Source: Cryobacterium frigoriphilum | Lineage (GTDB): Bacteria > Actinomycetota > Actinomycetes > Actinomycetales > Microbacteriaceae | Direction of reading: 5' to 3' | Assembly: GCF_004403305.1 (NCBI RefSeq) | Contig: NZ_SOHE01000015.1 | Location: forward strand, 1-64,000 | DNA: 64,000 nucleotides | Shown: positions 1 through 62,205 of the stretch, piece by piece | How positions within the stretch are numbered: position 1 is the first letter of the stretch | How the letters are laid out: each line of letters starts with the position of its first letter | The notes under the pieces: model-generated | What the model saw: the letters and a program-made list of their open reading frames with translations, nothing else | Database searches by the model: none | Told to the model about the DNA's origin: nothing | Translations under genes and position numbers: made by a program

Positions 1-45
1 TTCCGGGTTGCCGCGCTCGCCGCCGCCGGCCGGGGCGACGCGTGA
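1..45 (+). CDS. 3' end of an unidentified gene (partial)
   Basis: An open frame enters from the left edge and ends at the TGA at 43-45, giving only fourteen residues ending in AAAGRGDA. The stop overlaps the GTG start of the next gene (GTGA), which is the coupling style used throughout this window, so the two are probably one operon. The fragment is too short to identify. An amidohydrolase such as allantoinase would fit the neighbour, but that is only a guess. Confidence 0.45.
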   Translation, partial: FRVAALAAAGRGDA

Positions 46-1355
46 CCACGACCGGCCGGGCGGATGCTGCGGCCCCCGCCGGCACGCCGCGCTCCGGCGT
101 CACCGTGACCGGCGATACCGTGACCGGGCTGCTCGCCGAGATCGCCGCGATCGGCGCCGATCGCGTGCGTGGCGGCTACTCGCGGCCGGTGTTTTCGACC
201 GCCGAACACGATCTGCGGGCGTGGTATCTCGCCCAGGCCGCCAAGCGCGGTCTGCGGGTCGACACCGACCGCAACGGCGTGATTTGGGCGTGGTGGCCCG
301 AGGGCACGGGCGTGGATGCTGCAGCGGCGAAGGCCGTCGTCACGGGAAGCCACCTCGACTCGGTGCCGGGCGGCGGCGCCTTCGATGGGCCGCTCGGCGT
401 CGCCTCGGCGCTCGTCGCCGTCGACCTGCTGCGTGCCCGCGGGGTGCGCCCGCTCTGCCCCTTCGCGCTCGCCGTGTTTCCCGAGGAGGAGGGCTCCCGC
501 TTCGGAGTCGCCTGCCTCGGCTCCCGACTGCTCACCGGTACGATCGACCCTGATCGGGCCCGGTCTCTCACCGACCTGAACGGCGACACCTTCGCCGAGG
601 TCGCCGCCCGCAACGGCCTCGACCCCCGCTTCGTCGGCACCGACCCCGAGTCGGTCGCCCGCCTCGGCACCTTCGTCGAGCTGCACGTCGAGCAGGGCCG
701 CGGCCTCATCGATGCGCAGCAGAGCGTGGGCATCGGCAGCGCCGTGCTCGGCCACGGGCGTTGGCGGCTGAGCGTGTCGGGGGAGGGCAACCACGCCGGC
801 ACCACTCTCATGGCGGACCGTAAAGACCCCATGGTGGCCGCGGCGCGACTGGTCGTGCTCGTGCGCGACACCGCTCGAGCCCACCCGCAGGCACGTGCCA
901 CTGTCGGCCGCCTGCAGCCGGTACCCGGCGGCACCAATGTCATCGCCAGCCGGGTCGACCTGTGGCTTGACGCGCGGCACATGGATGACGCGGTGACGGC
1001 ATCCGTCGTCGCCGAGATCTACGCCGGAGCCGAGCTGATCGCCGCCGAAGAGGGCTGCACGGTCACGCTCACCGAGGAATCGCTCAGCGCCACCGTGCAC
1101 TTCGACCCGGCGCTGCGCGACCGGCTCGCCGTGGTGTTGCCGGGAGCCCCGGTGCTCGACACCGGCGCCGGCCACGACGCGGCCATTCTGAGCGGGTTCG
1201 TGTCGACCGCCATGCTGTTCGTGCGCAACCCCTCCGGCATCTCACATTCGCCAGAGGAATACGTCGAAGACAGCGATGCCGAGGCCGGCGCCGCGGCGCT
1301 CGCCGACGCGCTGCAGGCCCTGCTCGTCCCGACCGATCAGGGGACTGTCGCCTAA
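42..1355 (+). CDS. M20-family N-carbamoyl-L-amino-acid hydrolase / allantoate amidohydrolase
   Basis: This 437-residue protein is a zinc-dependent M20 amidohydrolase, a family that hydrolyses N-carbamoyl amino acids or allantoate and releases ammonia and CO2. The metal site is visible: GSHLDSVPGGGAFDG near residues 102-116 supplies the first His and Asp ligands, FPEEEGSRFG near 150 supplies the catalytic Glu pair, then LHVEQG, and a C-terminal SGISHSPEEY gives the last His. Length matches the family. The GTG start at 42 overlaps the upstream stop. An XRE-cupin regulator follows 9 bases downstream, and nitrogen genes lie further on, which fits nitrogen scavenging from purine or hydantoin compounds. 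Allantoate and carbamoyl-amino-acid substrates cannot be told apart from sequence. Confidence 0.85.
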   Translation: MTTTGRADAAAPAGTPRSGVTVTGDTVTGLLAEIAAIGADRVRGGYSRPVFSTAEHDLRAWYLAQAAKRGLRVDTDRNGVIWAWWPEGTGVDAAAAKAVVTGSHLDSVPGGGAFDGPLGVASALVAVDLLRARGVRPLCPFALAVFPEEEGSRFGVACLGSRLLTGTIDPDRARSLTDLNGDTFAEVAARNGLDPRFVGTDPESVARLGTFVELHVEQGRGLIDAQQSVGIGSAVLGHGRWRLSVSGEGNHAGTTLMADRKDPMVAAARLVVLVRDTARAHPQARATVGRLQPVPGGTNVIASRVDLWLDARHMDDAVTASVVAEIYAGAELIAAEEGCTVTLTEESLSATVHFDPALRDRLAVVLPGAPVLDTGAGHDAAILSGFVSTAMLFVRNPSGISHSPEEYVEDSDAEAGAAALADALQALLVPTDQGTVA

Positions 1356-1364
1356 GATCGGAGG

Positions 1365-1955
1365 GTGTCAGACATCGCGGAGTCCAAGCCTCTACCCGGT
1401 GCCCTCGAGCGCGTCATCGCCACTCAGGTGCGGTACTACCGCGCAGAGGTCGGGCTCTCCGCGGCCGATCTCGCGGTGCGCACGGGCCTGTCGAAGGCGA
1501 TGATCAGCAAGGTCGAGAGCGCGAGCACCTCGTGCTCCCTGACCACCCTGCAGCGCCTCGCCGAAGGCCTGAACGTGCCGGTCACTGCCCTGTTCCGTGG
1601 CGCCGACACCGACCGCGACGCGACGTTCACCAAGAGCGGCGAGGGCAGTCTGAGCGTGCGCAGCGGCACCCAGCACGGCCACGAATATCGGGTTCTGGGC
1701 ACGCTCAAGGGCCGCTCCGATGCGATCGAACCGACCCTGGTCACGCTCACCGACGCCTCCGATATCTTTCCGCTGTTCCAGCATCCGGGCACCGAATTTC
1801 TCTACATGCTCAGCGGAATCATGGTCTACGGCCACGGCGCCTACGAGTACACCATGCATCCCGGAGATTCCCTGCTGCTCGACGGCGAGGGCCCCCACGG
1901 CCCCCTCAAACTCATCTCCCTGCCGATCAGCTTCCTCGCGATCACCGCCCCGTAG
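1365..1955 (+). CDS. XRE-family transcriptional regulator with C-terminal cupin domain
   Basis: This is a 196-residue DNA-binding protein. Residues about 17-72 form an XRE helix-turn-helix (AADLAVRTGLSKAMISKVE is the recognition region) and residues about 115-190 form a small cupin barrel (HPGTEFLYMLSG, YTMHPGDSLLLDG). Such regulators usually sense a small metabolite in the cupin and control an adjacent catabolic operon. The start is GTG at 1365 behind GGAG in cggaggGTG, 9 bases after the amidohydrolase stop, so it is probably co-transcribed with it. The effector is unknown. It could regulate the amidohydrolase or the N-demethylase modules beyond the repeat block. Confidence 0.85.
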   Translation: MSDIAESKPLPGALERVIATQVRYYRAEVGLSAADLAVRTGLSKAMISKVESASTSCSLTTLQRLAEGLNVPVTALFRGADTDRDATFTKSGEGSLSVRSGTQHGHEYRVLGTLKGRSDAIEPTLVTLTDASDIFPLFQHPGTEFLYMLSGIMVYGHGAYEYTMHPGDSLLLDGEGPHGPLKLISLPISFLAITAP

Positions 1956-2271: not shown

Positions 2272-3321
2272 TCAGGGGGCGAGCAGCCAGTCGGCGGCCT
2301 GGTGTCGAAACCGGGTGAGGCCCTTGTACTCGGCCATGTCCTCCGGCAGCTCCTCGAGAACCCGCCCAACCCGTTCGCGCCAGGCCGGCACGGTGGCGAT
2401 CTCCGCGAGGGAGATCAGGTAGGTGCGCACGAGAAAGAGAATGGCACCGGATGTCGGCAGCCGAATCAGGTGCTGCACCTCCACCCGCAGATGCATCCGA
2501 TCGGCGAAGTTGGGGTCATCCTCGATCAGGCGACGATCACGACCCCACTCCGGATAGACGTCGGTGCTCGTGTCGAGGCGCCGGTCCACGGTCATGCTCC
2601 AGTTGGTGCGGCGAAACGTCTCGCCCGGCTGCAGGTGCATCAAAAACTGTTCGGCCCGGCTCACGATGCGTTCCCCGTGCACCCGCGGCACCGGCCCGTG
2701 AATCTCGGCGAAGCGCATGCCCACGTCGAAGCCGAGGCACCAGTCGGCGGCGAAGGTCACAACGCCGGCATCGAGCCAGAGCGCTCCTTCACGTTCGTCG
2801 AGAATGGCGATGTCGTCCTGAATCTGGCCGCTGATGAATTCGAGCGGGTCGACGCCGAGCGAGGAATCGTCACCGACCGTGAACTCGAGGCTCAGGCCGA
2901 GCAGGTCGTTGCGCCAGGTGCAGTGCCGTCCGTCGCGGGTGTACGCCATCAGATCGGGATATTCCGTGGCGAGAATGGGCAGCAGTGTCGTGATCGTGTC
3001 CCATACTGCAGGGCGCATATGTTCGAGGGTCTGGCATCGGCTCGGGTCGCGCTGCACAATTCGGGCGCGTTCGGCGAGTTCGCTCGCGTAGTCGGCGTCG
3101 ATGTCGAGCACTCGGGCGCCCCAGCCGCCGGCCTCGGTGGCCACAAACTTCGGGGCCGCCTCGACATTGGTGCCGTACCGGTACTGGTCCGCCGGAAACG
3201 GAAAAGGCAGCGTCACGGCGCGCGCCGCAATCGGTACCGCCGGCGCGGGGGGTGCCGGCGCGGAGGGTGCGGGCGCTGATGCGGCGCTTGCAGTCGTGTG
3301 GGCAGGGGGCGAGAGGGTCAC
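2272..3321 (-). CDS. Heme-dependent oxidative N-demethylase family catalytic subunit (DUF3445), left copy
   Basis: The 349-residue protein belongs to the DUF3445/HODM family, heme proteins that oxidatively remove N-methyl groups (dimethylamine monooxygenase and relatives). The family signature EIHGPVPR, likely part of the heme pocket, lies near the middle and is followed by SRAEQFLMHL and RRTNW. The GTG start at 3321 overlaps the reductase stop (GTGA), so it is the last gene of the leftward operon. A long open frame continues upstream of this start but only reads the reductase gene out of frame. The right copy at 6953-8017 shares the same motifs. The first ~35 residues are a low-complexity Ala/Pro/Ser tail. 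The exact amine substrate is not readable. Confidence 0.8.
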   Translation of the reverse strand: MTLSPPAHTTASAASAPAPSAPAPPAPAVPIAARAVTLPFPFPADQYRYGTNVEAAPKFVATEAGGWGARVLDIDADYASELAERARIVQRDPSRCQTLEHMRPAVWDTITTLLPILATEYPDLMAYTRDGRHCTWRNDLLGLSLEFTVGDDSSLGVDPLEFISGQIQDDIAILDEREGALWLDAGVVTFAADWCLGFDVGMRFAEIHGPVPRVHGERIVSRAEQFLMHLQPGETFRRTNWSMTVDRRLDTSTDVYPEWGRDRRLIEDDPNFADRMHLRVEVQHLIRLPTSGAILFLVRTYLISLAEIATVPAWRERVGRVLEELPEDMAEYKGLTRFRHQAADWLLAP

Positions 3322-4307
3322 AGGTCGAGCTCCAGTTCGTTCTCGTGGCCGCGACTCACGCAGCACATCATGGTGTCGTTGGCGGCCTTGCCCTCGGGGC
3401 TGAGGTAGAGGTCCCGGTGCTGGGGCTTTCCGGCGAGCACCGGAAGGGCGCACTCTCCGCAGATTCCGCGGCGGCACAGGTTGAGCACGGCAGTTCCGAC
3501 CGCTTCGAGGGCCTCGAGCAGGGACTGCCCGGCGGCGACCGGCACGCTGCGGGCGCTGCGGGCCAGGCGCACGGTGAAGGGGGCGCCCGGGTCGAGGGTG
3601 GCGGCCCCGAACAGCTCGTAGTGCACGCGTTTGTCGGGCCAGCCGGCCTCGGCGGCCGCGAGCAGTACGGCATCCGTGAAGCCCTGCGGGCCACAGATAT
3701 AGAGGTGTGTGCCGACCGGCTGGCTGCGCAGGCGTTGCTCCAGGGTGCGGCGAAACTGTTCGCGGGTGGTGCTCTCGACGAGGTCGTCGATGCCGAACCC
3801 TCGTGCCTCGTCGAGGTGTGCCGCGGTGCCGGGCCGGTAGGAGTACAGCAGCGACACCGAGCGGTTCCAGTCCCGGGCGGCCGCGAGGTGCGAGAGCATC
3901 GGCGTGATGCCGATGCCGGCCGCGATCAACAGGTGGTGCTTCGCTGTGGCAACGGGAGCAAACGCGCTGCGGGGCCGGGAAACCTGAACGGTGGTACCGA
4001 GCGGCAGGGCGTGCAGAGCGGTCGAGCCGCCCGCACCTCCCGGCAGTCGCAGCACCGAGATCGTGTACTCCAGCGGATGCACCCCGCTGCCGGTCAGGGA
4101 ATAGGCGTTCGTGCGCTCACCGCAGCGCACCAGAATGTGGCTGCCCGGCACGAATTCTGGCAGCACCGCGCCGTTCGGTGCGCGCAGCGTGAAGGCCCGG
4201 ATCTGCGACGTGAGGTCGACGACGCTCGTCAGGGTGAGGCTCAGTGCGTTCGGGATCGGGGGAGTCGACACGAGCGGCGGCACAGTGTCGGCGAGTACGG
4301 CGCTCAC
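3318..4307 (-). CDS. Phthalate-dioxygenase-reductase-type electron transfer subunit (flavin, NAD(P)H, 2Fe-2S), left copy
   Basis: This 329-residue reductase would pass electrons from NAD(P)H through flavin and a [2Fe-2S] centre to the heme N-demethylase. A flavin-binding barrel carries NAYSLTGSG, a nucleotide-binding fold carries LLIAAGIGITPMLSH, and a C-terminal plant-type ferredoxin domain carries CRRGICGEC with the fourth Cys in MMCCVSRG. The domain order (flavin, NAD, ferredoxin last) is that of phthalate dioxygenase reductase. The start is GTG at 4307, overlapping the preceding stop; a longer upstream extension exists but reads through the previous gene. In dimethylamine monooxygenase systems such a reductase is an essential subunit. 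Confidence 0.85.
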   Translation of the reverse strand: MSAVLADTVPPLVSTPPIPNALSLTLTSVVDLTSQIRAFTLRAPNGAVLPEFVPGSHILVRCGERTNAYSLTGSGVHPLEYTISVLRLPGGAGGSTALHALPLGTTVQVSRPRSAFAPVATAKHHLLIAAGIGITPMLSHLAAARDWNRSVSLLYSYRPGTAAHLDEARGFGIDDLVESTTREQFRRTLEQRLRSQPVGTHLYICGPQGFTDAVLLAAAEAGWPDKRVHYELFGAATLDPGAPFTVRLARSARSVPVAAGQSLLEALEAVGTAVLNLCRRGICGECALPVLAGKPQHRDLYLSPEGKAANDTMMCCVSRGHENELELDL

Positions 4308-4813
4308 GAGAGCTCTTCGGCGTTGACCATGAAGCCCAGATATGACGCGGTGCGCCGAGAGTAGTGGTGGTAGATCAGCATGAGAGCGTCGCAGCCGGTA
4401 CAGGGCACGGTGCCTCCGATCGGTTCGGTGGTCTCGGTCAGGGTCTTGCAGTGGGCACACAGCACCTGGCGACGAGCGTGCGAGGTGACCACGAGGGTGA
4501 GCTCCTCATCGAGGGCGCCGCAGTCCAGCGCGGTCGCCCTGGCGAGGTAGACATCCGTTTCGGGGCCCGCGAGCAGCAGGCGAAAGCCCACCGTGGAGGT
4601 CGCGAGCATGGTGCGCAGTCGGGTGAGGGCCGCGCTGTCCGCCCGGGCGGCCGCGAACTCGCACCACCGCGCGGCGAGGTGCGAGCCGCGCGGCCACGTG
4701 TTCAGTGCGGCCGCGCGGCCATCGTCGCCGAACGACACCACGAGAATTTCGCGGGCCGTGGCAAGCAGAGCCCCCGGGGTGGCCCGCGGAACGCTCGTGA
4801 AGGAGGTCGTCAT
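4304..4813 (-). CDS. DmmA-like small subunit with C-terminal zinc-ribbon, left copy
   Basis: This 169-residue protein resembles the DmmA-like subunit of dimethylamine monooxygenase. The N-terminal half is an alpha/beta domain without clear catalytic motifs. The C-terminal part has two CxxC pairs (CAHC and CTGC, about 17 residues apart), typical of a zinc ribbon, followed by HHYSRRTASYLGFMV. It sits between the cupin gene (2-base gap) and the reductase (4-base overlap). The right-hand copy at 5410 has the same layout, including the HxxSxxxxSFLASMV-like tail. Its role is probably structural or in electron transfer; that is inferred from context. Confidence 0.7.
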   Translation of the reverse strand: MTTSFTSVPRATPGALLATAREILVVSFGDDGRAAALNTWPRGSHLAARWCEFAAARADSAALTRLRTMLATSTVGFRLLLAGPETDVYLARATALDCGALDEELTLVVTSHARRQVLCAHCKTLTETTEPIGGTVPCTGCDALMLIYHHYSRRTASYLGFMVNAEELS

Positions 4814-4815
4814 GG

Positions 4816-5211
4816 TTAGGGGGCGAAGGTACGGGCGCCGACGTAGAAGCCGAGGGCGTAGTCATCCGTCTCGAATTTGACCGTCGTGCCCTTCGGGAAG
4901 AAGAGCACGTCCCTGGCCTTGGCGCGGGTGACCTCGCCGGTGGCCTGATCGGTGAGGATGAATTCGCCCTCGACGACGACCTTCATTTCGTCATAGGTGT
5001 ACTCGTAGACCAGGGGTGCAGAGGCCTTGAGCTCGAAGAAGCCCGAGCTGATGGCGGCACCCTCCGGGTTGGACAGGGCGTCACCGATGAATCCCTCGGA
5101 GCCCAGGATATTCATGCTCGGCAGGTTGAGGAAGGCGTTTTCGACCTTGTGGATGGATCCGGCCTTGGTGAGGGTGCCGTTCAATTCGGCGGTAGTGGTG
5201 TCGAGTGTCAT
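4816..5211 (-). CDS. EutQ-like cupin domain protein, first gene of the left N-demethylase operon
   Basis: This is a 131-residue single-domain cupin. The second half carries the barrel motifs (YTYDEMKVVVEGEFILTD, then KARDVLFFPKGTTVKFET), similar to the cupin of ethanolamine-utilisation protein EutQ. ATG at 5211 is preceded by GGAGA at a good distance. It is the promoter-proximal gene and is followed by the DmmA-like gene after 2 bases. The right-hand module has no such gene, so this cupin is the main structural difference between the two copies. It might bind a small amine or metal, or act as an accessory enzyme; no function is established here. Confidence 0.7.
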   Translation of the reverse strand: MTLDTTTAELNGTLTKAGSIHKVENAFLNLPSMNILGSEGFIGDALSNPEGAAISSGFFELKASAPLVYEYTYDEMKVVVEGEFILTDQATGEVTRAKARDVLFFPKGTTVKFETDDYALGFYVGARTFAP

Positions 5212-5409
5212 GGGATGGTCTCCTTCAGGAAGTTGTTGAACTTGCGTAACCAAGAATTACTCTCAGGAAACTCTTCGCAGGTTTCCACCGTGTTAAATCC
5301 CCTCGATTCAATCCGGTTTCTACTCGAACGGGGGTGGTGGCCGGTGATTGCAACCCCGAATTTACACCGGTGAAACACGAAATCGTTGAATAGCAGTGAA
5401 CATAGTTGC
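5212..5409. promoter_or_regulatory. Divergent promoter region between the two N-demethylase operons
   Basis: This 198-base region is clearly more AT-rich than its surroundings and separates two operons that run away from each other. A perfect 8-base palindrome CACCGGTG with flanking TT/AA lies at 5362-5375 and could be an operator. Individual -35/-10 boxes cannot be assigned with confidence. A shared operator here would co-regulate both copies. Confidence 0.6.
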
Positions 5410-5949
5410 ATGACACTCATCGTTTATCCGCCGGCCCGCAGTCTTCCGCAGTGGCCCAGTGCAGATCTCGACCGGTCTGCCGCATCGCACCTCATCATCG
5501 GCGTCGGAGGCGAGGCCGAAGCCGCCACCGCCCGTGCCGTGTTCGGCCAGGCGCAGGGCCTCGCGCCGACGACCATGCTGCATTTCGCCGAGTTTGGCGC
5601 TCCGCAGTCAGCCGCCCTTGCCGACGCGCTCAGCGCCAGCCGCGTCGGTGCCCGCGTCTACATTGTCGGCGGCCGGTACGACGTGCTGCAGGCCCTGGCT
5701 CTGGCCCGCTCTTCCGGAGTGCTGCCGCCCGAACTTCGCTGCCGGGTCACGCACACCCGGGATCTTCCCCTGTTCTGCGCGCACTGCCGGCAGACCAGCC
5801 GGGTTGTGGGCAACCCGGGCAGCGCGGTGACCTGTCCCGGCTGCGAGCGCCTGGTCGAGATCCACGCCCACAGCTCCGAGGTGCGCGGTAGTTTTCTCGC
5901 GTCGATGGTGGCACCGGCGCTCTCGCACGAACTGGCCGTGGCGGCATGA
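5410..5949 (+). CDS. DmmA-like small subunit with C-terminal zinc-ribbon, right copy
   Basis: This 179-residue paralogue of the protein at 4304-4813 has an N-terminal alpha/beta domain (HLIIGVGGEAEAATARAVFG) and a C-terminal zinc ribbon with CAHC and CPGC, followed by HAHSSEVRGSFLASMV. ATG at 5410 gives a natural N-terminus, but the ribosome site is weak; an in-frame TTG at 5386 would add 8 residues. The gene ends overlapping the next start (ATGA). The family link to dimethylamine monooxygenase subunit DmmA is from recognition of the zinc-ribbon tail and the operon, so it is moderately secure. Confidence 0.72.
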   Translation: MTLIVYPPARSLPQWPSADLDRSAASHLIIGVGGEAEAATARAVFGQAQGLAPTTMLHFAEFGAPQSAALADALSASRVGARVYIVGGRYDVLQALALARSSGVLPPELRCRVTHTRDLPLFCAHCRQTSRVVGNPGSAVTCPGCERLVEIHAHSSEVRGSFLASMVAPALSHELAVAA

Positions 5950-6953
5950 ACCTGCTGGCGGTCGAGTCGCCGTCGGTGCACGCGCATCCGTCGTCGGAAA
6001 CCCGCCTGCGGCAGCTCGCCGTCATCGCCGTCACACGCCTCACCGAGACCATCACGCACTTCGAGTGTGCCGATCCGGCCGGCGGTCGGCTGGTCTCGTA
6101 CGAACCCGGCAGCCACCTGATCGTGACCGCCGGCGCGGTGCGCAACACCTATTCACTCGTCGGAGACGGCGTGAACCCCCTCAGCTACGGCATTTCGGTG
6201 CTGCGCCGCGAACCGGGCGACCCGGCCGCGTCGGGCGGGTCAGCTTGGCTGCACGACACCCTGCACGTCGGGTCGACGGTCATGGTCGAGGGGCCGCGCT
6301 CCCTGTTCGCGCCCCGCACGACGGCTCGCCGGTCGCTGCTCGTGGCCGGCGGCATCGGCGTCACTCCGATTCTCTCCCACGCCAGGGCCGCGGCTCGCTG
6401 GGGCCGACCGGCCGAGGTCGTCTACGTTTACCGCACCGGCCATGGCGCCCATGTCGACGACCTGCGCGAACTCGCCGACTCGGGCGCCATCACCCTCTTC
6501 GAGGCGCACAATCAGACGGATGCCGCGGCACTGCTTCGCGACCGGCTCGCCGCCCAGCCCATGGGCACGCACGCCTACGCCTGCGGTCCGGTCTCGCTGC
6601 TCGACACCTACCTGAGCCTCGGACAGGAGGCCGGCTGGCCCGCGGAACGACTGCACTCCGAACGCTTCGAGGTGCCGCCACAGCAGCCGGGCCTGCCCTT
6701 CACCGCGACGATCGCCTCGACCGGCGCGCGCCTCGAGGTACCGGCCGGAGTCAGCCTGCTCGACGCCCTGCTCGAACACGGCGTGCCGGTCGCGAACCTC
6801 TGCCGCAGGGGCGTCTGTGGCGAGTGCCGTATTCCGGTGCGCTCGGGCAGCATCGAACACCGCGACTACGTGCTCTCCGAACAGGAAAAATCCGCCCACA
6901 CATCCATGCTCTGCTGCGTCTCGCGCGGCGACGAAATCGAGGTCGACCTCTAG
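5946..6953 (+). CDS. Phthalate-dioxygenase-reductase-type electron transfer subunit, right copy
   Basis: This 335-residue reductase is the paralogue of 3318-4307. It carries a flavin site (NTYSLVGDG), a nucleotide-binding site (LLVAGGIGVTPILSH), an ACGP motif, and a C-terminal [2Fe-2S] domain (CRRGVCGEC plus MLCCVSRG). It should supply electrons to the heme subunit encoded next. It overlaps the DmmA-like gene by 4 bases and the heme-subunit gene by 1 base (TAGTG), so the three are translationally coupled in the same order as the left copy. Confidence 0.86.
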   Translation: MNLLAVESPSVHAHPSSETRLRQLAVIAVTRLTETITHFECADPAGGRLVSYEPGSHLIVTAGAVRNTYSLVGDGVNPLSYGISVLRREPGDPAASGGSAWLHDTLHVGSTVMVEGPRSLFAPRTTARRSLLVAGGIGVTPILSHARAAARWGRPAEVVYVYRTGHGAHVDDLRELADSGAITLFEAHNQTDAAALLRDRLAAQPMGTHAYACGPVSLLDTYLSLGQEAGWPAERLHSERFEVPPQQPGLPFTATIASTGARLEVPAGVSLLDALLEHGVPVANLCRRGVCGECRIPVRSGSIEHRDYVLSEQEKSAHTSMLCCVSRGDEIEVDL

Positions 6954-8017
6954 TGATCCAGAACACGCTGACCCCCGCCCCCGACGAGCTGGCCCCCGCC
7001 CCCGAGCTGGCCCCCGCACTCGAGCTGGCCGCGGCCGAGACCACCGCCGATCACCTCGCCGGCCTGCCGTGGCCGTTTCCCGACGACCTCACTGCCTTTC
7101 GCTACTCGGTCAACGTCGAACCCGGCCGCACCACCCGCACCACCGCGGCCGGGCAGTGGGGCAGCCACCTCGTCGATCTCGGCGGGGCCGACTACCCGGT
7201 CATCATGGCCGAACGCCGCCGCATCCTCGACGCCGATCCGGGGCGGGCGCAGATCCTCACCGGCATGATGCCCGCCTGCTGGGACCTGCTGCTCTACTAT
7301 CTGCGTGACCTCGCCGTGTCGTACCCGGGCATCATGCACCTTGACGAAGACCCTGACGGCGTCCACTTCCACTGGCAAAACGACGTACTCGGCACCGACC
7401 AGCATTTCGTGCTCGGCGACCTCGGGAGCCTCGGACTCGACCCGCTGACCTTTCTCGGCCGCGAGGTACCCGACGATCTGCTGCTCGTCAAGGAGCGCGA
7501 CGGCCAGCTCTTCTTCGACGCCGGACTCGTCACCTTCGCCGCCGCCTGGTCGGTCACCTTCGACGTCGGCATGAACTTTCGCGAGATCCACGGCCCGGTG
7601 CCGCGCATGACCGGCGAGGGCATGACGAGCCGCGCCGAGCAGTTCCTGATGCAGCTGCCGGCCGACAAGCTCTACCGCCGGGCCAACTGGACCCTCTCCG
7701 CCTCCGGCTCCCGCAAACTCGACATCAGCCTCGAAGAGTTTCCCGAGTGGACCGACGACCTGCCGCAGCTCGTGCAGCGACGCGACTTCGGCCAGCTGCA
7801 GCTACGCATCGAACTCGAACACTTCGTGCGGCTGCCAATGTCGGGCGCCATCACCTTCTGCATTCGCACCTTCATGGCCTCCCTCGCCGAGATCAAGACC
7901 GTACCCGTCTGGCGTGACCAGCTCGCACAGGTGCTCGCCGAATTGCCGGAGGACATGGCCGCCTACAAGGGCTTTCTTGGCCATCAAGCGGATGCCGCCG
8001 CCTGGCTCCGCTCCTAA
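6953..8017 (+). CDS. Heme-dependent oxidative N-demethylase family catalytic subunit (DUF3445), right copy
   Basis: This 354-residue DUF3445 protein is the paralogue of the left copy. The conserved core EIHGPVPRM, SRAEQFLMQL and RRANW is present near residues 205-240. GTG at 6953 overlaps the reductase stop. The first ~25 residues are a repetitive APxELAPxPELAP stretch not expected in the fold, so the true start or this tail may vary. Products of the reaction would be formaldehyde and a less methylated amine. Downstream by 64 bases is an ammonium transporter, linking the operon to nitrogen supply. Confidence 0.8.
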   Translation: MIQNTLTPAPDELAPAPELAPALELAAAETTADHLAGLPWPFPDDLTAFRYSVNVEPGRTTRTTAAGQWGSHLVDLGGADYPVIMAERRRILDADPGRAQILTGMMPACWDLLLYYLRDLAVSYPGIMHLDEDPDGVHFHWQNDVLGTDQHFVLGDLGSLGLDPLTFLGREVPDDLLLVKERDGQLFFDAGLVTFAAAWSVTFDVGMNFREIHGPVPRMTGEGMTSRAEQFLMQLPADKLYRRANWTLSASGSRKLDISLEEFPEWTDDLPQLVQRRDFGQLQLRIELEHFVRLPMSGAITFCIRTFMASLAEIKTVPVWRDQLAQVLAELPEDMAAYKGFLGHQADAAAWLRS

Positions 8018-8081
8018 ATCCCACCCCGTTCACCCCCTGCACTTTCACACCCCTGCACCTTGACACCCTGGAGTTGACACA

Positions 8082-9329
8082 ATGCCCGCAGCCGATCTCG
8101 CCTGGCTCCTCGCCGCATTCGCACTGGTCTCACTCATGTTTCCCGGACTCGCCATGTTCTACGGCGGCATGCTCGGCACCAAGAACATTCTCAATATGCT
8201 CATGATGGTCATGAGCTCCCTCGCCGTCACGAGCGTTCTCTACGTTCTCTACGGCTACAGCATGGTTTCCGGCAACTCATGGGGCGGCCTCGGCATCATC
8301 GGGGATCCCCTCGAATTCTTCGGCCTGCAGACCTTCGTCACCGACCTGGAGACCGGCGGGGCCGAGGGCCTCTACTGGGCGGCCTTCTTCATCCTGTTCG
8401 CCGCGATCACCATCGCGATCGTCGCCAGCGGCGCCGCCGGTCGCATGAAGTTCGGCGCCTGGATTGCGTTCTCAGCGCTCTGGCTCACCCTCGTGTACTT
8501 TCCGCTGGCCCACCAGGTGTTCACCTTCAGCGACCCGGAATCCGGCTATGTCGGCGGCTGGCTACGCAACGTGATCGAACTGCACGACTTCGCCGGCGGC
8601 ACCGCGGTGCACATGAACGCCGGCGTTGCCGCCCTCGCCCTCGCGATGGTGCTCGGCAAACGCAAGTCCGCCGCACACCGCCCGCACAACCTGCCGATGG
8701 TCGTGCTCGGCGCCGGAATTCTCTGGTTCGGCTGGTACGGCTTCAACGGCGGCTCTGCCGCGGGCGCGAACTTTCTCGCCCAATACGTCGTGCTCACCTC
8801 CCTGCTCGCCGGTTCGGCCGGCATCATCGGGTTCTGCCTGGTGGAAAGAATCCGCAACGGCAAGGCAACGACGCTCGGTATGGCATCCGGTGCCATCGCC
8901 GGACTCGTGGGCATCACCCCCTCGGCCGACGCGGTCGACCCGATCGGCGCCCTGCTCGTGGGCCTCGCCGCCGGAGCCGTGGTCTGCCTCGCTCTGACCT
9001 GGAAGACCAAGCTCGGCATCGACGACACCCTTGATGCCTTCGCCGTGCACGGTGTCGGCGGCGTGGTCGGCGTCATCTGCGTGGTGCTCTTCGCCGACTC
9101 GGCCGCCCCCGCCGGCATCACGGGTATCCTCTTCGGCGGCAACCTCGACATCGTCTGGCGGGAGCTCGTCGCGATCACCGTCACCTGCACGTACTCCTTC
9201 GTCATGACCTACGCCATCGCCTGGGGCCTGAACAAGACCATCGGCCTGCGCGTCACCGAAGAAGACGAGTACGCCGGTCTTGACGTGACGCTGCACGCCG
9301 AAACGGCCTACGTTTCGGAACGGGCCTGA
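8082..9329 (+). CDS. amt: Ammonium transporter of the Amt family
   Basis: This 415-residue polytopic membrane protein has about eleven hydrophobic helices. Hallmarks include FPGLAMFYGGMLG in the first helices, DFAGGTAVHMNAGVAALA, a conserved WFGWYGFNGGS, and DDTLDAFAVHGVGGVVG containing a pore histidine. Amt proteins take up ammonium and often also methylammonium, which would be the natural product of demethylating dimethylamine. ATG at 8082 is preceded by GGAG. It lies 64 bases after the N-demethylase gene with no obvious terminator between them, and is followed by its usual partner, a P-II protein. Confidence 0.95.
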   Translation: MPAADLAWLLAAFALVSLMFPGLAMFYGGMLGTKNILNMLMMVMSSLAVTSVLYVLYGYSMVSGNSWGGLGIIGDPLEFFGLQTFVTDLETGGAEGLYWAAFFILFAAITIAIVASGAAGRMKFGAWIAFSALWLTLVYFPLAHQVFTFSDPESGYVGGWLRNVIELHDFAGGTAVHMNAGVAALALAMVLGKRKSAAHRPHNLPMVVLGAGILWFGWYGFNGGSAAGANFLAQYVVLTSLLAGSAGIIGFCLVERIRNGKATTLGMASGAIAGLVGITPSADAVDPIGALLVGLAAGAVVCLALTWKTKLGIDDTLDAFAVHGVGGVVGVICVVLFADSAAPAGITGILFGGNLDIVWRELVAITVTCTYSFVMTYAIAWGLNKTIGLRVTEEDEYAGLDVTLHAETAYVSERA

Positions 9330-9381
9330 CGGCCCGCGAGCACCATTCCACCCGCGACCCCACCACCGTTAGGACAGCACC

Positions 9382-9720
9382 ATGAAACTCATCACCGCCA
9401 TCATTCAGCCGCACCGCCTCGACGCCGTGCACGAAGCGCTGTCCGCCAGACACGTCAACGGCCTCACCGTCACCGAGGTCAGCGGCTACGGCGCCCAGAA
9501 GGGGCACTCGGAGATCTACCGCGGGGCCGAATACAACATCGCGTTTCGGCCCAAGGTGCGCATCGACGTCGTCGTGACCGAGGACGAAGCCGACGCGACG
9601 ATCCAGATCATCGTCGATGCCGCGTACACCGGCAAGATCGGCGACGGCAAGGTCTGGGCCACCGAGGTCAGCGAGATTGTGCGGGTGCGCACGGGGGAAC
9701 GCGGGGTGACCGCGGTCTGA
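9382..9720 (+). CDS. glnK: P-II family nitrogen regulatory protein
   Basis: This 112-residue P-II protein has the standard length. The T-loop reads GAQKGHSEIYRGAEYNIAF with Tyr51, the residue adenylylated or uridylylated in related proteins, in place. The B-loop (TGKIGDGKVW) and the C-terminal VRVRTGERG are present. It should bind the Amt trimer and block it when nitrogen is plentiful. It lies 52 bases after amt and ends before a strong hairpin. The usual actinobacterial partner glnD is not next to it. Confidence 0.95.
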   Translation: MKLITAIIQPHRLDAVHEALSARHVNGLTVTEVSGYGAQKGHSEIYRGAEYNIAFRPKVRIDVVVTEDEADATIQIIVDAAYTGKIGDGKVWATEVSEIVRVRTGERGVTAV

Positions 9721-12323: not shown

Positions 12324-13268
12324 CTACGAGCCCATACTGCGGCGCGGTGGCTGGGGTTTCTGAACCGCTAGTTCGCCGCCGACCCGCCCGCCGAAGGGGC
12401 GGCCGTGGTCGGCGAACTCCTCCCGGAAATACGCCATCCGCCACGGTCCCATCTCGATCCGGGCACCGGTGCGCAGAATCTGGCCCCGGCCGCGCGCGAA
12501 CCCGTCGTCGTCGGATTCCCGCACATTGCCCGACACGTCACCGAGCGGATACAGCACGTACTCGTCGTTCTCGTCGTGACGAATTTCGGCGTGGAACGAC
12601 TTCAGCCCGCCGAGCTGCAGGCTCGCCTCGGCGGCCGAACCGATCGTCGTGGTCGTCGGCAGCAGATCGAACTCCCGTGGCGGCTTGCCGTCCCAGTTCT
12701 GTGATCCGACCACGAAGATCAGGCGCGGGCGCCCGCTTCCCGGCGTGTAGTGGGTCGTCGTGACTCGACGCCGATTCTTGCGATCCAGTGTCGGTACGAG
12801 CGGAAACAGCGTCGACGGGGGCAGGGACACCGCAACCGCCCGCGTCGCCGCACGGTTGCGACCGAGCAGCATCGGGGCCAGATTGAGCATCGGGGCCAGA
12901 GCGGATGCTGACCCCAGCGTGATATTCGGCGACTTCGTCACCAGGCGCTGCAGCAGGGGCGCGTCAACGGCGCCGATTTTGGCGATCAGTCCCGAGGGAC
13001 CGGTCAGCGCCACGGTAAGGCCCTGCCTGGCGAGCTCATCGGCGATTCCGCGTACCTGACCGAGGTCCATAGAGCGACCCTGCGCGAGAAGTGCGGGGTC
13101 GCTCGTGAAGACCGTGACCTCGGTGCCGTCGGCGGTGATCGTTCCGGTCAGGGTATCCGGCGTCGCCGCTGCCGGGGAGTCAGCCGAGGCGGGTTCCAGG
13201 GCAGGTTCCGACAGCGAGAAGGCCAGGTCGACGTGCAAGTGCACGGTCGAGGTCGTGGCGGGGGACAC
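12324..13268 (-). CDS. FHA domain-containing protein
   Basis: This 314-residue protein ends in a forkhead-associated domain of about 100 residues (TTTIGSAAEASLQLGGLKSFHAEIRHDENDEYVL and later GARIEMGPWRMAYFREEFADHG), which would bind phosphothreonine peptides from Ser/Thr kinases. The N-terminal ~200 residues form an unrecognised alpha/beta domain (DGTEVTVFTSDPALLAQGRS, LARQGLTVALTGPSGLIAKIGA). GTG at 13268 is the first in-frame start after the stop of the small upstream gene, leaving a 2-base gap. Co-transcription with that gene is very likely. Confidence 0.82.
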   Translation of the reverse strand: MSPATTSTVHLHVDLAFSLSEPALEPASADSPAAATPDTLTGTITADGTEVTVFTSDPALLAQGRSMDLGQVRGIADELARQGLTVALTGPSGLIAKIGAVDAPLLQRLVTKSPNITLGSASALAPMLNLAPMLLGRNRAATRAVAVSLPPSTLFPLVPTLDRKNRRRVTTTHYTPGSGRPRLIFVVGSQNWDGKPPREFDLLPTTTTIGSAAEASLQLGGLKSFHAEIRHDENDEYVLYPLGDVSGNVRESDDDGFARGRGQILRTGARIEMGPWRMAYFREEFADHGRPFGGRVGGELAVQKPQPPRRSMGS

Positions 13269-13270
13269 GA

Positions 13271-13543
13271 CTACGCGCGGTGCGGGTCGGAGCCGGCGCT
13301 GTCGGCGTCGCTCGTGGTGACACGCAGCGTGCCGTTGAGCTTCCAGGTCGCGCGGGGTGCGTCGGGGCCGATGTCGCGGGGAACCTCGACGTGCATGTCG
13401 ATGAAGCTGTAGTTGATCGCGGCGCCCTTGCCGGTGAGGTACGACCACATTTCCTGGCCGAGGTCGGTCCAGTCCTGAATCGTGTGCTCGGTCTCATCGG
13501 GGGTGCTGTCAACGTTTCCGAGGTAATTCTGGTGTTCAGTCAC
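13271..13543 (-). CDS. Small hypothetical protein upstream of the FHA gene
   Basis: This 90-residue acidic protein has no motif I recognise. It starts VTEHQNYLGNVDSTPDETEH and has a beta-rich centre (INYSFIDMHVEVPRDIG, ATWKLNGTLRVTT). GTG at 13543 is preceded by GAAGGAA at ideal spacing, so it is a real gene. It is tightly coupled to the FHA protein, which suggests a partner or substrate of it; the threonine-rich ends could be phosphorylated and read by the FHA domain, but this is inference. Confidence 0.75.
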   Translation of the reverse strand: MTEHQNYLGNVDSTPDETEHTIQDWTDLGQEMWSYLTGKGAAINYSFIDMHVEVPRDIGPDAPRATWKLNGTLRVTTSDADSAGSDPHRA

Positions 13544-13648
13544 GGTGGGTTCCTTCTCATCATCATTGGTGCAACACAATGGGTAACCAAGTTAGGTATG
13601 TTGACACTCTAGTGTGCAAACACCCCGGCCACGGCGGAGGAATAACGA

Positions 13649-15370
13649 TCAGAGGCCGCGGCGACCAGGTAACAGTGCCGCCAGTAAAGGTGCGACCGAG
13701 GCGACCATCAGCACGGTTCCGAGCACCGCGTCATCCGCTCTCAGAAGCACGCCGGCGATCAGCAGTGCGCCGAATACGAGCGCCGACACCGCCTGTCGAA
13801 TGGTGCGCTCGAGCCGGGCGACGCGCTTCTCCAGGCCCGGATTGGTGACCGCTACGGAGCCGTTCTCGAATCGGGTGATGAGCTCATCGACTCGTTTCGG
13901 CAGACGAAAGACGATTCCGGCCGTCTCCATGGCTTGCTTTGCGAGGTCCTGCACCAGGTTGCCGCTCTCGTCACGCAGCAGCTGCGCCGCATACGGCTCG
14001 ACGGAATCCCAGAGATTGAACGCGGGATTGAGGGCGCTGGCCACCCCGGAGGTGAGCGACATCGCTCTGATGATGAGCAGAAAGTTTTCAGGCAGCTGAA
14101 ACGGCAGCGAACGCACGACATCGCCGAACTGCACGGCGAAGTCGCGGAACTCCCGCGGGTCCACCTCGCGCAGCTCGGCGAAACCCATGCCACCGAAGCG
14201 TGCGAACAGCGTGGTCATTGCCCGCTCAAGCTCGGTCGTCTCCGCTGAGGGAAGCAGCACACCAACGTCGTTCATGGCATTGACCAGACCGCGCCCATCT
14301 CGCGAGGCGGCGGCGATGAGCATTTTGCGCAGCCCGGTGCGCGTGCTGGTGGGCACCTCGCCCATCATGCCGAAGTCGATGAAGGTGAGTTTCCACCCAC
14401 GCTCCGCGGCCGTATCGGACCCGTCGGTGACCGGAGTGACGAAGATGTTTCCGGGATGAGGATCGGCGTGAAAGAAGCCCTTGGTGAACATCTGGTCAAA
14501 CATGACCGCAGCGAAGACGGGGGCCACCTCCGCCGGGTCGATGCCCGCCGCGACCAGGGCGTCCACGTCGGTGATCTTGATCGCCGACACGTCCTCCAGC
14601 GTGAGCACGCGGCGGGTGGTGCGCTCCCAGACGACGACGGGCACGCTGACGCGATCGTCGTCCGGAAAGGCAGCCGCGAAACGCTCGGAGCTGGCGGCCT
14701 CATGCAGGTAGTCAATCTCCTCGAGGCTCGTGAGTGCGAACTCCTCGACGAGCGCCGGCATGTCGACCCGGTTGGAGACGAGCTTGACGTGGCTGAGCCA
14801 GCCGCCCACCTTGCGCAGGGCTGCCAGATCGACGTCGATGATCTCATCGATGCCCGGTCGCTGCACCTTGATGATGACCTCGTCGAGCCCGGTGTCGGCG
14901 GCGTCGCGCGGGGTGAGTCTGGCTCGATGCGCCTGCCCGAGCGACGCGGCGGCAACCGGAGTCTCGTCGACGAGTGCGTACGCTCGCTCAAGTGGCATGC
15001 CCAGCTCGTCCTCGACGGCCGCGCGAATGGCGGCGAACGACACGGGCGCGACTTCGTCCTGGAGCCCCTCAAGCTCGGCGGTAATCTCGGGCGGAAGCAC
15101 GTCGAGACGTGACGACATGAACTGCCCGACCTTGATCATCAGCCCGCCAAGGTCGGCCGCCAGCACGTGGAAACCCCGTGCGAAGCGTCGCATGCGCTTC
15201 GTGCGGGTGCGCTCGGCGACCTTGATCAGCCCGATTCGGGGCAGGAACAGCTCGAACCACCACGTGACGGCGAGATACCAGCTGGCAAATCGCAGGATGC
15301 GGCGGTATCGGGCGCGCATATTGCCCGCGCCCGATTCTGAGTCGTTGCTGCCTCGACGAGCCGATGGCAC
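13649..15370 (-). CDS. ABC1/UbiB-family atypical protein kinase-like protein
   Basis: This 573-residue protein carries all UbiB-family signatures: KVGQFMSSR (the KxGQ motif), AAASLGQAHRA (Ala-rich loop), FFHADPHPGNIF and FIDFGMMGE (catalytic and metal residues). Two hydrophobic helices at the C-terminus (about residues 525-570) anchor it in the membrane. Family members act as ATPases or kinases in isoprenoid quinone and lipid handling; the actinobacterial role is unsettled. It starts 4 bases after the PadR stop, so the regulator and this gene are one unit. Confidence 0.9.
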   Translation of the reverse strand: MPSARRGSNDSESGAGNMRARYRRILRFASWYLAVTWWFELFLPRIGLIKVAERTRTKRMRRFARGFHVLAADLGGLMIKVGQFMSSRLDVLPPEITAELEGLQDEVAPVSFAAIRAAVEDELGMPLERAYALVDETPVAAASLGQAHRARLTPRDAADTGLDEVIIKVQRPGIDEIIDVDLAALRKVGGWLSHVKLVSNRVDMPALVEEFALTSLEEIDYLHEAASSERFAAAFPDDDRVSVPVVVWERTTRRVLTLEDVSAIKITDVDALVAAGIDPAEVAPVFAAVMFDQMFTKGFFHADPHPGNIFVTPVTDGSDTAAERGWKLTFIDFGMMGEVPTSTRTGLRKMLIAAASRDGRGLVNAMNDVGVLLPSAETTELERAMTTLFARFGGMGFAELREVDPREFRDFAVQFGDVVRSLPFQLPENFLLIIRAMSLTSGVASALNPAFNLWDSVEPYAAQLLRDESGNLVQDLAKQAMETAGIVFRLPKRVDELITRFENGSVAVTNPGLEKRVARLERTIRQAVSALVFGALLIAGVLLRADDAVLGTVLMVASVAPLLAALLPGRRGL

Positions 15371-54358: not shown

Positions 54359-55261
54359 GTGTGTTCAACGTGTGGCTGTAGCGACGAGGCCGGAGTACGC
54401 GTCGCCGGGGTGCCTTTGCCCGGCCTGCAACTCATTGCGAACCCGAACCACGAGCACCCGCACGACCACCCGCACGACCAGGGCCGCTCACACTCCCACC
54501 CGCACAGCCACACTCCAGAGGCTGCGATCGACGCCGCGACCGCGACCTCGAGCGAAACGGTCGTGCTGGAGCAGAGTCTGCTTGCCCGAAACGATCTGCT
54601 CGCCGCCCGCAACCGCGGCTGGCTCGATGGCCGCGACATCCGTGCCGTCAACGTCATGAGTTCACCCGGATCGGGCAAGACGACCCTGCTCGTGCGCACC
54701 CTCGCCGATTGGGGACAGCGGATGCCGTTCGCCGTCGTCGAGGGCGACCAGGAGACCTCGATCGACGCCGACCGCATTCGGGCCACCGGTGTGCCCGTCG
54801 TGCAGATCAACACCGGGGCCGGCTGCCACCTTGACGCCGACATGCTCCAACACGCCCTGCGCGCCCTCGATCCCGACCCGGGATGCACGGTGCTCATCGA
54901 AAACGTCGGCAATCTCGTCTGCCCGGCCCTGTTCGACCTCGGCGAAGCCGCCAGGGTCGTCATCGTGTCGGTCACCGAGGGCGACGACAAACCTCGCAAA
55001 TACCCGCACATGTTCTCGGCGGCCGACCTTGTGGTGATCAACAAGAGCGACCTGCTTCCCTACGTTGAATTCGATGTCGAGCGCTGCGCAAACCAGGCTC
55101 GACAGCTGAATCCGAATGTTGACGTGCTGGTCGTATCCGCCACCACGGGCGCAGGCCTCGACGGTTGGTACGACTGGCTGACGCGCCCGCCCGGCACGAA
55201 CTCAGGCGACGTAACCCCAGGAGACACCGATGCCCAGCCACACAGCTACCAAACGTACTGA
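54359..55261 (+). CDS. hypB: Hydrogenase nickel incorporation GTPase HypB
   Basis: This 300-residue GTPase starts VCSTCGC (metal-binding CxxCxC), then a His/Asp-rich stretch at 31-51 for nickel storage, Walker A SSPGSGKTT at 101-109, EGDQETSIDADR, NTGAGCHLDADML, ENVGNLVCPALFDLGE and the base-specificity NKSD. GTG at 54359 is preceded by AAGGGA and puts the CxxCxC motif at the N-terminus. It overlaps the small subunit gene by 32 bases. Confidence 0.94.
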   Translation: MCSTCGCSDEAGVRVAGVPLPGLQLIANPNHEHPHDHPHDQGRSHSHPHSHTPEAAIDAATATSSETVVLEQSLLARNDLLAARNRGWLDGRDIRAVNVMSSPGSGKTTLLVRTLADWGQRMPFAVVEGDQETSIDADRIRATGVPVVQINTGAGCHLDADMLQHALRALDPDPGCTVLIENVGNLVCPALFDLGEAARVVIVSVTEGDDKPRKYPHMFSAADLVVINKSDLLPYVEFDVERCANQARQLNPNVDVLVVSATTGAGLDGWYDWLTRPPGTNSGDVTPGDTDAQPHSYQTY

Positions 55262-56306
55262 CCCGACCCCCGCGGAAGAGGCCCTGATCCACGTCTTGTG
55301 GATCAACGCCGGACTGAGTTGCGACGGCGACTCGGTCGCCCTCACCGCGGCGACCCAGCCGAGCATCGAAGAGATCGCCCTCGGCGCCCTTCCCGGCCTG
55401 CCGCACATCAGTATGCACTGGCCCCTCATCGACTTCGAGTGCGGCCCCGAGCACGGCGCCGACGACTTTCTGGAGTGGTTCCGCAAGGCCGACCGCGGCG
55501 AGCTCGAACCCTTCGTGCTGATCGTCGAGGGGTCGATCCCGAACGAAAAGCTGCACGCCGAGGGCGGCTACTGGAGCGGCTTCGGCAACAACCCCGAGAC
55601 CGGGCAGCCAATCACCACGAGCGAGTGGCTCGACCGCCTCGCCCCGAAGGCCACCGCCATCATCGCCGCCGGAACCTGCGCGACCTACGGCGGCATTCAC
55701 GCCATGGCCGGTAACCCGACCGGCGCGATGGGAGTGCCCGACTACCTCGGCTACGGCTGGACCAGCAAGGCGGGAATCCCGGTGGTGTGCGTGCCGGGCT
55801 GCCCGATCCAGCCGGATAACCTCTCGGAGACCATCACCTATCTGCTGTACCAGGCCACCGGGCAGGCGCCGATGATTCCGCTCGATGACAACCTGCGGCC
55901 GACCTGGCTGTTCGGCCACACCGTACACGAAGGATGTGACCGGGCCGGCTACTACGAGCAGGGCGACTTCGCGACCGAATACGGTTCGCCCAAGTGCATC
56001 GTGAAGCTCGGCTGCTGGGGGCCCGTCGTCAAGTGCAACGTGCCCAAGCGCGGCTGGATGAACGGCATCGGGGGCTGCCCGAACGTGGGCGGCATCTGCA
56101 TCGGCTGCACCATGCCGGGCTTTCCCGACAAGTTCATGCCCTTCATGGACGAACCGCCCGGCGGCAAGCTGTCGACGACGGCGATCATGCCCTACGGCAC
56201 CACGATTCGGGCGCTGCGAAAGATCACCGGCAACACCCTCGACACAGAACCCCGCTGGCGCCGGCCCGGCAGCAAACTGCTCACCGGCGCCGTTCGCACC
56301 TGGTAG
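55230..56306 (+). CDS. hhyS: Group 1h [NiFe]-hydrogenase small subunit
   Basis: This 358-residue Fe-S subunit carries electrons from the large subunit. The proximal cluster motif is NAGLSCDGDSVALTA, with Cys31 and Asp34, where other hydrogenases have two Cys. This 3Cys-1Asp arrangement marks the oxygen-tolerant, high-affinity group 1h. Other ligands lie in GTCATYGG, GCPIQPDNL, CIVKLGCWGPVVKCN and GGCPNVGGICIGCTMPGFPD. There is no Tat signal peptide, which is normal for this group. The gene overlaps hypB by 32 bases. Confidence 0.93.
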   Translation: MPSHTATKRTDPTPAEEALIHVLWINAGLSCDGDSVALTAATQPSIEEIALGALPGLPHISMHWPLIDFECGPEHGADDFLEWFRKADRGELEPFVLIVEGSIPNEKLHAEGGYWSGFGNNPETGQPITTSEWLDRLAPKATAIIAAGTCATYGGIHAMAGNPTGAMGVPDYLGYGWTSKAGIPVVCVPGCPIQPDNLSETITYLLYQATGQAPMIPLDDNLRPTWLFGHTVHEGCDRAGYYEQGDFATEYGSPKCIVKLGCWGPVVKCNVPKRGWMNGIGGCPNVGGICIGCTMPGFPDKFMPFMDEPPGGKLSTTAIMPYGTTIRALRKITGNTLDTEPRWRRPGSKLLTGAVRTW

Positions 56307-56354
56307 TCCCCACCCCACACCGATACCGGCCTGGCCACGCGAAAGGCGCCAGAT

Positions 56355-58151: not shown

Positions 58152-58157
58152 GCCGTC

Positions 58158-62089: not shown

Positions 62090-62205
62090 AATTCATCGGA
62101 GGCGTGACGGTCTTCGTGCTCGCCGCGAGCGCGGCCGTCGCCGTGGTCGTGGGAATACGCTCGATCCCGGACCTTCAGCGGTACCTGAAGATGCGCGAGA
62201 TGTAG
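62086..62205 (+). CDS. DUF6893-type single-helix membrane microprotein
   Basis: This 39-residue peptide is one membrane helix (residues about 5-27, GGVTVFVLAASAAVAVVVGI) with a basic tail RSIPDLQRYLKMREM. ATG at 62086 overlaps the 487-residue gene and the stop overlaps the protease start, so it is translationally coupled. Similar tiny proteins stand at this place in other group 1h operons. It may tie the hydrogenase to the membrane. Confidence 0.8.
   Translation: MKFIGGVTVFVLAASAAVAVVVGIRSIPDLQRYLKMREM

Follow-up and report, generated by a model that had tools for sequence, protein, structure and literature searches.

The window, a stretch of 64,000 nucleotides of Cryobacterium frigoriphilum DNA corresponding to contig C56 of a 4.38-Mb genome (G000), contains two gene sets for haem-dependent oxidative N-demethylases (HODM) of the DmmABC type, in which a haem-PAS catalytic subunit (C) is accompanied by a reductase (B) and a zinc-ribbon subunit (A). 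The two sets, called here left (L) and right (R), diverge back to back, and all genes of the cassette are present with open frames. Gene coordinates and family matches confirmed the layout described in the initial annotation, namely two complete trios divergent around 198 bp, a cupin gene first in the left set, and amt followed by glnK after the right one. The genes are located as follows.

2272..3321, minus strand, GTG start: C_L, haem-PAS catalytic subunit of the dimethylamine-demethylase type (PF11927, 1.4e-68)
3318..4307, minus strand: B_L, flavin/2Fe-2S NAD(P)H reductase (PF00111, PF22290)
4304..4813, minus strand: A_L, DmmA zinc-ribbon subunit (NF041259, 3e-31)
4816..5211, minus strand: EutQ-like cupin, leading the left operon (PF06249)
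5410..5949, plus strand, alternative TTG start at 5386: A_R, DmmA zinc-ribbon subunit (NF041259, 2.4e-26)
5946..6953, plus strand: B_R, flavin/2Fe-2S reductase (by its domains; it groups with B proteins adjoining C_R genes)
6953..8017, plus strand: C_R, haem-PAS catalytic subunit of the R clade (PF11927, 6.9e-55)
8082..9329, plus strand: cluster-specific amt (89-99% copies in the other three genomes with the divergent pair)
9382..9720, plus strand: glnK, the genome's sole P-II match

The gap between the sets is exactly 198 bp when A_R starts at 5410. Gene order is the same in both sets, as had been described, but the overlaps are alike rather than identical: A and B overlap by 4 nucleotides in both sets, while B and C do so by 4 nucleotides on the left and by 1 on the right. 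Both C proteins match PF11927 (HODM alpha) and are the sole two matches to this family in the whole genome, both A proteins match the DmmA family (NF041259/PF22289), and both B proteins combine Fer2 and DmmA-like_N domains as flavin/NAD/2Fe-2S reductases. The solved enzyme PDB 5lte is matched by C_L at 7.6e-94 and by C_R at 5.6e-65. A structure model of C_R (mean predicted local distance difference test score 81.7) gave template-modelling scores of 0.77 to 5lte and 0.78 to 5lth, and the strong matches in a PDB search with this model were HODM entries only. The proposal that both sets are of the N-demethylase type is borne out by these family matches and by the fold. The left set encodes its three subunits in the order A-B-C (DmmA, reductase, HODM alpha) and, judged by its sequence features, qualifies as a putative dimethylamine monooxygenase; the right set has the HODM alpha fold and the three subunits.

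Conservation and descent of the two sets

The search of other genomes suggested in the initial annotation found the divergent pair again in the genus, in 4 of 57 Cryobacterium genomes with this one included, and the arrangement is therefore not due to chance. A single left-type gene occurs in three of the 57 and a fragment with a stop in one. Elsewhere a tandem order is usual, and the divergent form is a Cryobacterium arrangement.

The tandem order was characterised in a sample of 401 genomes from the family of Rhodococcus globerulus. At a threshold of E 1e-30 or better, 89 of these genomes have an HODM gene, 46 with R and 43 with L only, genes being sorted as R at 53% or more identity to C_R and the sorting verified on fetched sequences; a second Gordonia R-type gene (50% to C_R) lies below this line, and the count does not need it. 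In 40 of the R genomes an L gene lies no more than about 3.5 kb away, in 4 it is elsewhere, and 2 have none. Fetched R loci numbered 41 (G061-G064 and G066 being excluded), and 38 of them have a nearby L gene. The usual tandem operon reads cupin-A_L-B_L-C_L-A_R-B_R-C_R-amt-gmaS-mgsABC-oxidase: 30 of the 41 loci follow it from the cupin gene to C_R, with amt-gmaS next in 26 of the 30. Seven loci keep the tandem order with a whole L set but without B_R, one has R ahead of L, and three are without a whole C_L, namely G325 (remnants) and G299 and G367 (cupin-B-A_R-C_R). A_R is present in all 41, gmaS in 32 and the flavin adenine dinucleotide (FAD) oxidase gene in 31.

Some loci depart individually from this pattern. 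In L174 (G325, 5390-8899), remnants of A_L (55 amino acids) and C_L (58 amino acids) lie ahead of A_R-C_R, likely a fossil tandem pair decaying to the B-A_R-C_R form. A plasmid of 'Candidatus Mycobacterium methanotrophicum' (L068, 13424-15918) has an R-type set; the stretch read contains no L, and the B of this set, matched in two pieces, may be broken. In L148 (G478, 12587-13910) the gmaS match is in three pieces and may be broken, the rest of the operon being whole.

The two sets are distant paralogues: L and R are 48% identical in C, 46% in B and 36% (over 89 amino acids) in A. In a tree of 81 catalytic subunits, from which L018_10001 was omitted because it duplicates L078_2867, the 15 R rows all fall into a single clade with support 100/100 on a branch of 0.61. 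They come from Cryobacterium, Aeromicrobium, Mycobacterium, Gordonia, Rhodococcus, Modestobacter and Corynebacterium loci, which represent at least five actinobacterial families. The proteobacterial enzymes, 5lte included, form another clade, also at 100/100. Within the genus, C_R is 92% identical to that of C. melibiosiphilum (L012). Alignment of the paralogous pairs, proposed earlier as a means of dating the duplication, thus gives identities of 36-48% and separate clades, which do not indicate a recent event; a recent mirror duplication is ruled out by the 48% identity of the C proteins and by their separate clades. Nor are the copies a local mirror duplication, as the initial annotation had pictured them, since the paralogy is older than the genus and, outside it, the sets usually stand in tandem.

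The reductases follow a different course. In a tree of 61 B proteins, drawn from 46 of the sources and not from all, most B proteins adjoining C_R form their own group, and those serving R sets without their own B group with the L type in all six cases placed (the seventh, L173, was left out). The reductase therefore looks exchangeable, while A and C seem to travel together, since the borrowed B is of the L type and A_R is present in every fetched R locus.

Connection with nitrogen metabolism

The N-methylglutamate pathway genes gmaS and mgsABC are present in this genome and lie on contig C25 together with a HutD-like gene and an FAD oxidase gene, the latter at the contig end. In C. melibiosiphilum, gmaS-mgsABC-HutD-like-oxidase genes are found directly upstream of an amidohydrolase gene and the pair; because the genes at the end of C25 precede the amidohydrolase gene in that species, C25 and C56 probably adjoin in this draft genome. 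The gmaS search covered the 57 Cryobacterium genomes and found the gene over cut-off in five, all four genomes with the pair among them.

The link of the sets to Amt and P-II, already proposed from the gene order, stands, with an Amt specific to the cluster and a P-II gene that is the only one matched in the genome. Relatives of the cluster Amt at 89-99% identity occur only in the other three genomes with the pair, the other genus matches listed reaching at most 52%, and the second Amt of this genome is 46% identical to it. A role as the core transporter of the genus was considered and ruled out, other genus Amt genes being only 44-52% identical. P-II was found in 26 of the 57 Cryobacterium genomes; at E 0.001 none was matched in the other 31. 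The proteobacterial plasmids L125 and L127 likewise carry an amt or P-II gene close to dmm, and the dimethylamine scheme published for Ruegeria pomeroyi includes amtB (PMC5520151); hence the association of amt or P-II with dmm is general and extends beyond Actinobacteria.

The cupin distinguishes the actinobacterial loci. A EutQ-like match is present in 76 of 94 of them and in none of six proteobacterial plasmid loci, whereas a DmmD-like match occurs in 2 of 94, each time together with a Tdm gene, versus 5 of 6. A GcvT-type DmmD beside dmmABC is absent at this locus, which is not a DmmDABC operon in that sense, and it is a guess that the cupin replaces the proposed formaldehyde-side role of DmmD. 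The presence of EutQ genes near methylated-amine genes was already noted by McTaggart et al. 2015 (PMC5023230).

Between the two sets lie three boxes resembling the GlnR consensus, given in the literature as gTnAc-n6-GaAAc (PMC10704036).

5257..5271, plus strand: GlnR-type box 1, TTAC-n6-GAAAC; a weaker form in two of four species
5281..5295, minus strand: GlnR-type box 2, TAAC-n6-GAAAC; half-sites kept in four species, spacer varies
5362..5376, plus strand: GlnR-type box 3, TTAC-n6-GAAAC; half-sites kept in four species, spacer varies

The motif TNAC-n6-GNAAC occurs five times in the window (3.4 expected) with three of the five in the 198-bp gap, and none of 5000 shuffles of the gap gave three boxes. 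Among 84 loci of the other family, all with homologous operons, 54 carry a box in the 400 bp ahead of the first gene, and these upstream regions together hold 60 boxes where the remaining sequence of the loci would predict 3.06. The motif ranks first among 1440 half-site permutations (60 versus a mean of 3.5 for the others), and a scan of spacer lengths peaks at 6, with the next value, 20 boxes, at spacer 5. With 54 distinct spacers among them, these boxes are no mere repeats of a single sequence. In this genome boxes also precede the other amt, gmaS (two boxes) and one of the two glutamine-synthetase-type genes on contig C79 (two boxes). Published data from Mycobacterium smegmatis, on genes that look homologous by order and annotation, point in the same direction: the expression results in PMC4222082 give GlnR-dependent expression of MSMEG_4635-4638 (18- to 32-fold) and 6259-6261 (10- to 16-fold), its gel-shifts show GlnR bound upstream of amtA and amt1, and chromatin immunoprecipitation peaks 37, 38 and 47 in PMC3662644 lie at 4635 (amtA), 4639 and 6259 (amt1).

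Several observations count against GlnR control. No box lies within 400 bp in 30 of the 84 loci, the best of the permuted motifs used as controls reached 48, and PMC4222082 gives negative gel-shifts for the regions ahead of msmeg_4638 and msmeg_6258. It is by gene order and annotation, and not by sequence, that MSMEG_4636-4639 would be an L-type DmmABC set. Nevertheless, the earlier suggestion of nitrogen control is supported by the boxes, through which GlnR would bind and control the two operons in Cryobacterium. Taken as a whole, the locus is very probably a nitrogen-scavenging module for methylated amines.

Substrate of the right set

The catalytic subunits of the two sets are separated by four sites, counted with identical cores taken once (62 R, 147 L and 7 proteobacterial rows) and numbered in C_R from the codon at 6950. 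R rows have W41 (62/62), F50 (61/62), P174 (62/62) and E290 (61/62, the remaining one D). The corresponding residues in L rows are F (139/147), Y (146/147), Q (144/147) and Q (147/147), and the seven proteobacterial rows, 5lte included, all have F, Y, Q and Q. C_L shows these four residues of the dimethylamine enzymes and C_R has none of them, so that the right set was filed as a sister subfamily and not as a dimethylamine monooxygenase. At the same time H214, R243, R244, N246 and W247 are kept in R rows with at most one exception each. Since the replaced sites are fixed across two phyla, the residue change argues for a different substrate in R, even if two of the 147 L rows have the R-like W and two the R-like P. 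Of the possibilities offered by the initial annotation, different amines for the two copies is thus favoured over plain redundancy, by the ancient separate clade and by the fixed residue differences. Its alternative, that one copy prepares the substrate of the other on the way from trimethylamine or dimethylamine to methylamine, stays an inference for R.

That R might take trimethylamine is suggested by the distribution of Tmm, since the pathway step otherwise missing is that from trimethylamine to dimethylamine. In the 401 genomes Tmm over cut-off occurs in 1 of 46 with R, in 14 of 43 with L only and in 46 of 312 without HODM; the difference between R and L-only genomes has a Fisher value of 1.1e-4, a statistic that is phylogenetically confounded. 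This genome has no Tmm over cut-off, and within Cryobacterium the gene is found in one of four genomes with the pair, in three of three with a single L and in 1 of 50 others. A mixed set of 51 genomes, which overlaps with the other sets and comprises those of 50 out of 56 loci and this genome (L029, L032, L043, L044, L064 and L065 excluded), has Tmm in 3 of 13 R versus 27 of 38 L-only genomes. Tdm over cut-off is present in 13 of the 51, among the R genomes only in G080, and adds little beyond Tmm.

The reading that we prefer, with a rough probability of 0.5 for the statement as a whole, is that of a GlnR-controlled module in which L would act on dimethylamine and R most likely on trimethylamine, feeding the N-methylglutamate pathway. 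In such a module B would pass electrons from NAD(P)H through flavin and 2Fe-2S, with A as its zinc-ribbon partner, and C_L would oxidise an N-methyl group of dimethylamine to yield methylamine and formaldehyde. R would be an old paralogue whose specificity has shifted to a different N-methylated compound, most likely trimethylamine, which it would convert directly into dimethylamine for L. Methylamine would then enter the gamma-glutamylmethylamide/N-methylglutamate route (gmaS-mgsABC and the FAD oxidase), Amt would recapture ammonium or methylammonium with GlnK in control, and GlnR would turn the promoters on under nitrogen limitation. The case is sequence-based, built on gene content, paired conservation, the separate clade, the diagnostic residues, the boxes and the gmaS-mgs link, and from these we infer catalysis and the substrates of both sets. 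Taken by itself, trimethylamine as the R substrate is plausible at somewhat under even odds. A tentative extension would make the R clade a haem-PAS trimethylamine N-demethylase that bypasses Tmm-Tdm, the Trp/Glu change fitting a tertiary methylammonium; with L and gmaS-mgs it would complete a GlnR-controlled trimethylamine-to-glutamate operon in Actinobacteria.

The points that weigh against trimethylamine come from the same distribution. The anti-correlation with Tmm is clustered on the tree, where one clade accounts for 31 R rows without Tmm, and mixed clades give Tmm in 1/6 R versus 10/14 L rows and in 0/4 versus 1/13 (in this count G066 contributes two L rows, and the R genomes G062 and G064 contribute none). 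Few independent events are therefore represented, one clade holding those 31 rows and only two clades being mixed. Tmm is retained in some R genomes (G059, C. luteum; G065; G080; G318), and 29 of the 43 L-only genomes are likewise without Tmm. The L-only label of G199 is also unsure: directly behind its C_L lies a second HODM-like match, 37% identical to C_R over 322 amino acids. This match (L193, 6299-7114) may be either another subtype, divergent from those described, or a copy in decay.

An unlikely alternative takes R for a further monooxygenase of dimethylamine (secondary amines), an isozyme of other affinity or of broader secondary-amine range. It is favoured by the fold, the subunit set and the operons that R shares with L, and by the seven loci with a whole L set that lack a reductase for R, with an L-type B in the six placed. 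However, at least 61 of the 62 R rows have other residues at the sites that are fixed in L and the solved dimethylamine enzyme, the R branch is long and separate, and the keeping of both sets in one operon speaks against simple redundancy.

Rather unlikely too is an action of R on some other N-methyl compound, such as an N-methylated amino acid, a choline- or betaine-derived amine or a dimethylalkylamine. It draws on the Rhodococcus-like loci L019, L178 and L181, whose cupin-B-A_R-C_R cassettes have no gmaS in the stretch read, and L016, where B-A_R-C_R has neither a cupin match nor gmaS in the stretch read and an AMP-binding enzyme gene adjoins. These separate cassettes perhaps point to a further substrate, and in L174, the likely origin of such cassettes, A_L and C_L have shrunk to remnants. 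Against this, R lies in or beside a gmaS cluster in 32 of the 41 fetched loci. The same count bears on the improbable idea that R acts further down the pathway, demethylating methylamine or N-methylglutamate, as its place in an operon ending with those steps might suggest: most R loci keep gmaS (32/41) and the FAD oxidase (31/41), so R does not replace these steps, and R as a substitute for gmaS-mgs or for the oxidase is disfavoured. A single mixed enzyme of L and R subunits with R in a structural or regulatory role, to which the reductase apparently common to both in 7 of 41 loci might hint, is very improbable given the invariant residues kept in R rows, A_R in all fetched R loci and the R cassettes without adjoining L in some Rhodococcus-like genomes.

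Known systems and neighbouring features

The DmmABC/HODM enzymes of Ruegeria pomeroyi, Methylocella and Paracoccus (5lte, 5lth) resemble those described here in their three subunits, gene order and haem-PAS subunit, and often lie near gmaS-mgs, amt or P-II as well. The present locus differs from them in its two divergent sets, its EutQ-like cupin, the lack of DmmD (GcvT) at the locus and a C_R without the residues fixed in the dimethylamine enzymes. The Tmm-Tdm route, found beside an L set in three Streptomyces loci, likewise would supply dimethylamine, but Tmm over cut-off is absent here and in 45 of the 46 R genomes of the family sample. To our knowledge, dimethylamine is the only characterised specificity of a bacterial haem-PAS demethylase. 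A paired L/R system was not found in the titles of the open-licence literature on dmmABC/DUF3445, on GlnR with methylamine or N-methylglutamate, or on trimethylamine in Gordonia and Rhodococcus.

The Arthrobacter and Mycobacterium clusters of McTaggart et al. 2015 (PMC5023230) are alike in their EutQ cupin and ferredoxin-type reductase genes, yet that paper, in its section on these clusters, proposes the reductase gene as Tmd and finds no separate dimethylamine enzyme, and a paired L/R system does not figure there. The M. smegmatis GlnR regulon, in the passages of PMC3662644 and PMC4222082 that deal with these genes, comprises amt with a 'vanillate O-demethylase oxidoreductase' group and a type III glutamine synthetase; its genes are not named there as dimethylamine demethylase, and the regulon is extended to Cryobacterium by motif only. 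For this operon, known under other names in M. smegmatis, the present comparison offers a candidate function, and the promoter boxes would place actinobacterial methylated-amine use inside the GlnR nitrogen response. Moreover, an ancient second clade co-kept in one operon provides a natural pair in which to study how the substrate of a sensor-like PAS pocket shifts, and if R takes trimethylamine, Actinobacteria scored as non-users for want of Tmm would need rescoring.

Two further genes precede the left set.

42..1355, plus strand: M20-family amidohydrolase of the allantoate amidohydrolase/carbamoylase type (NF006770 over cut-off)
1365..1955, plus strand: XRE-cupin regulator, a candidate local regulator (PF01381 and PF07883)

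The amidohydrolase gene adjoins gmaS-mgs in some relatives, with matching neighbourhoods in L012, L050 and L114, and the regulator gene is found again near some of the related clusters. Between the regulator gene and C_L, at 1954-2158, lies a cluster of nearly palindromic 24-base hairpin units, to which five of the six near-matches to the unit core in the window belong; it is possibly a repetitive extragenic palindromic (REP)-like element or a group of terminators. Farther along the window, at 54416-63013, are genes for NiFe hydrogenase small and large subunits, a CobW/HypB-type protein, NifU, DUF6084 and a protease, which we take to resemble high-affinity hydrogenase clusters.

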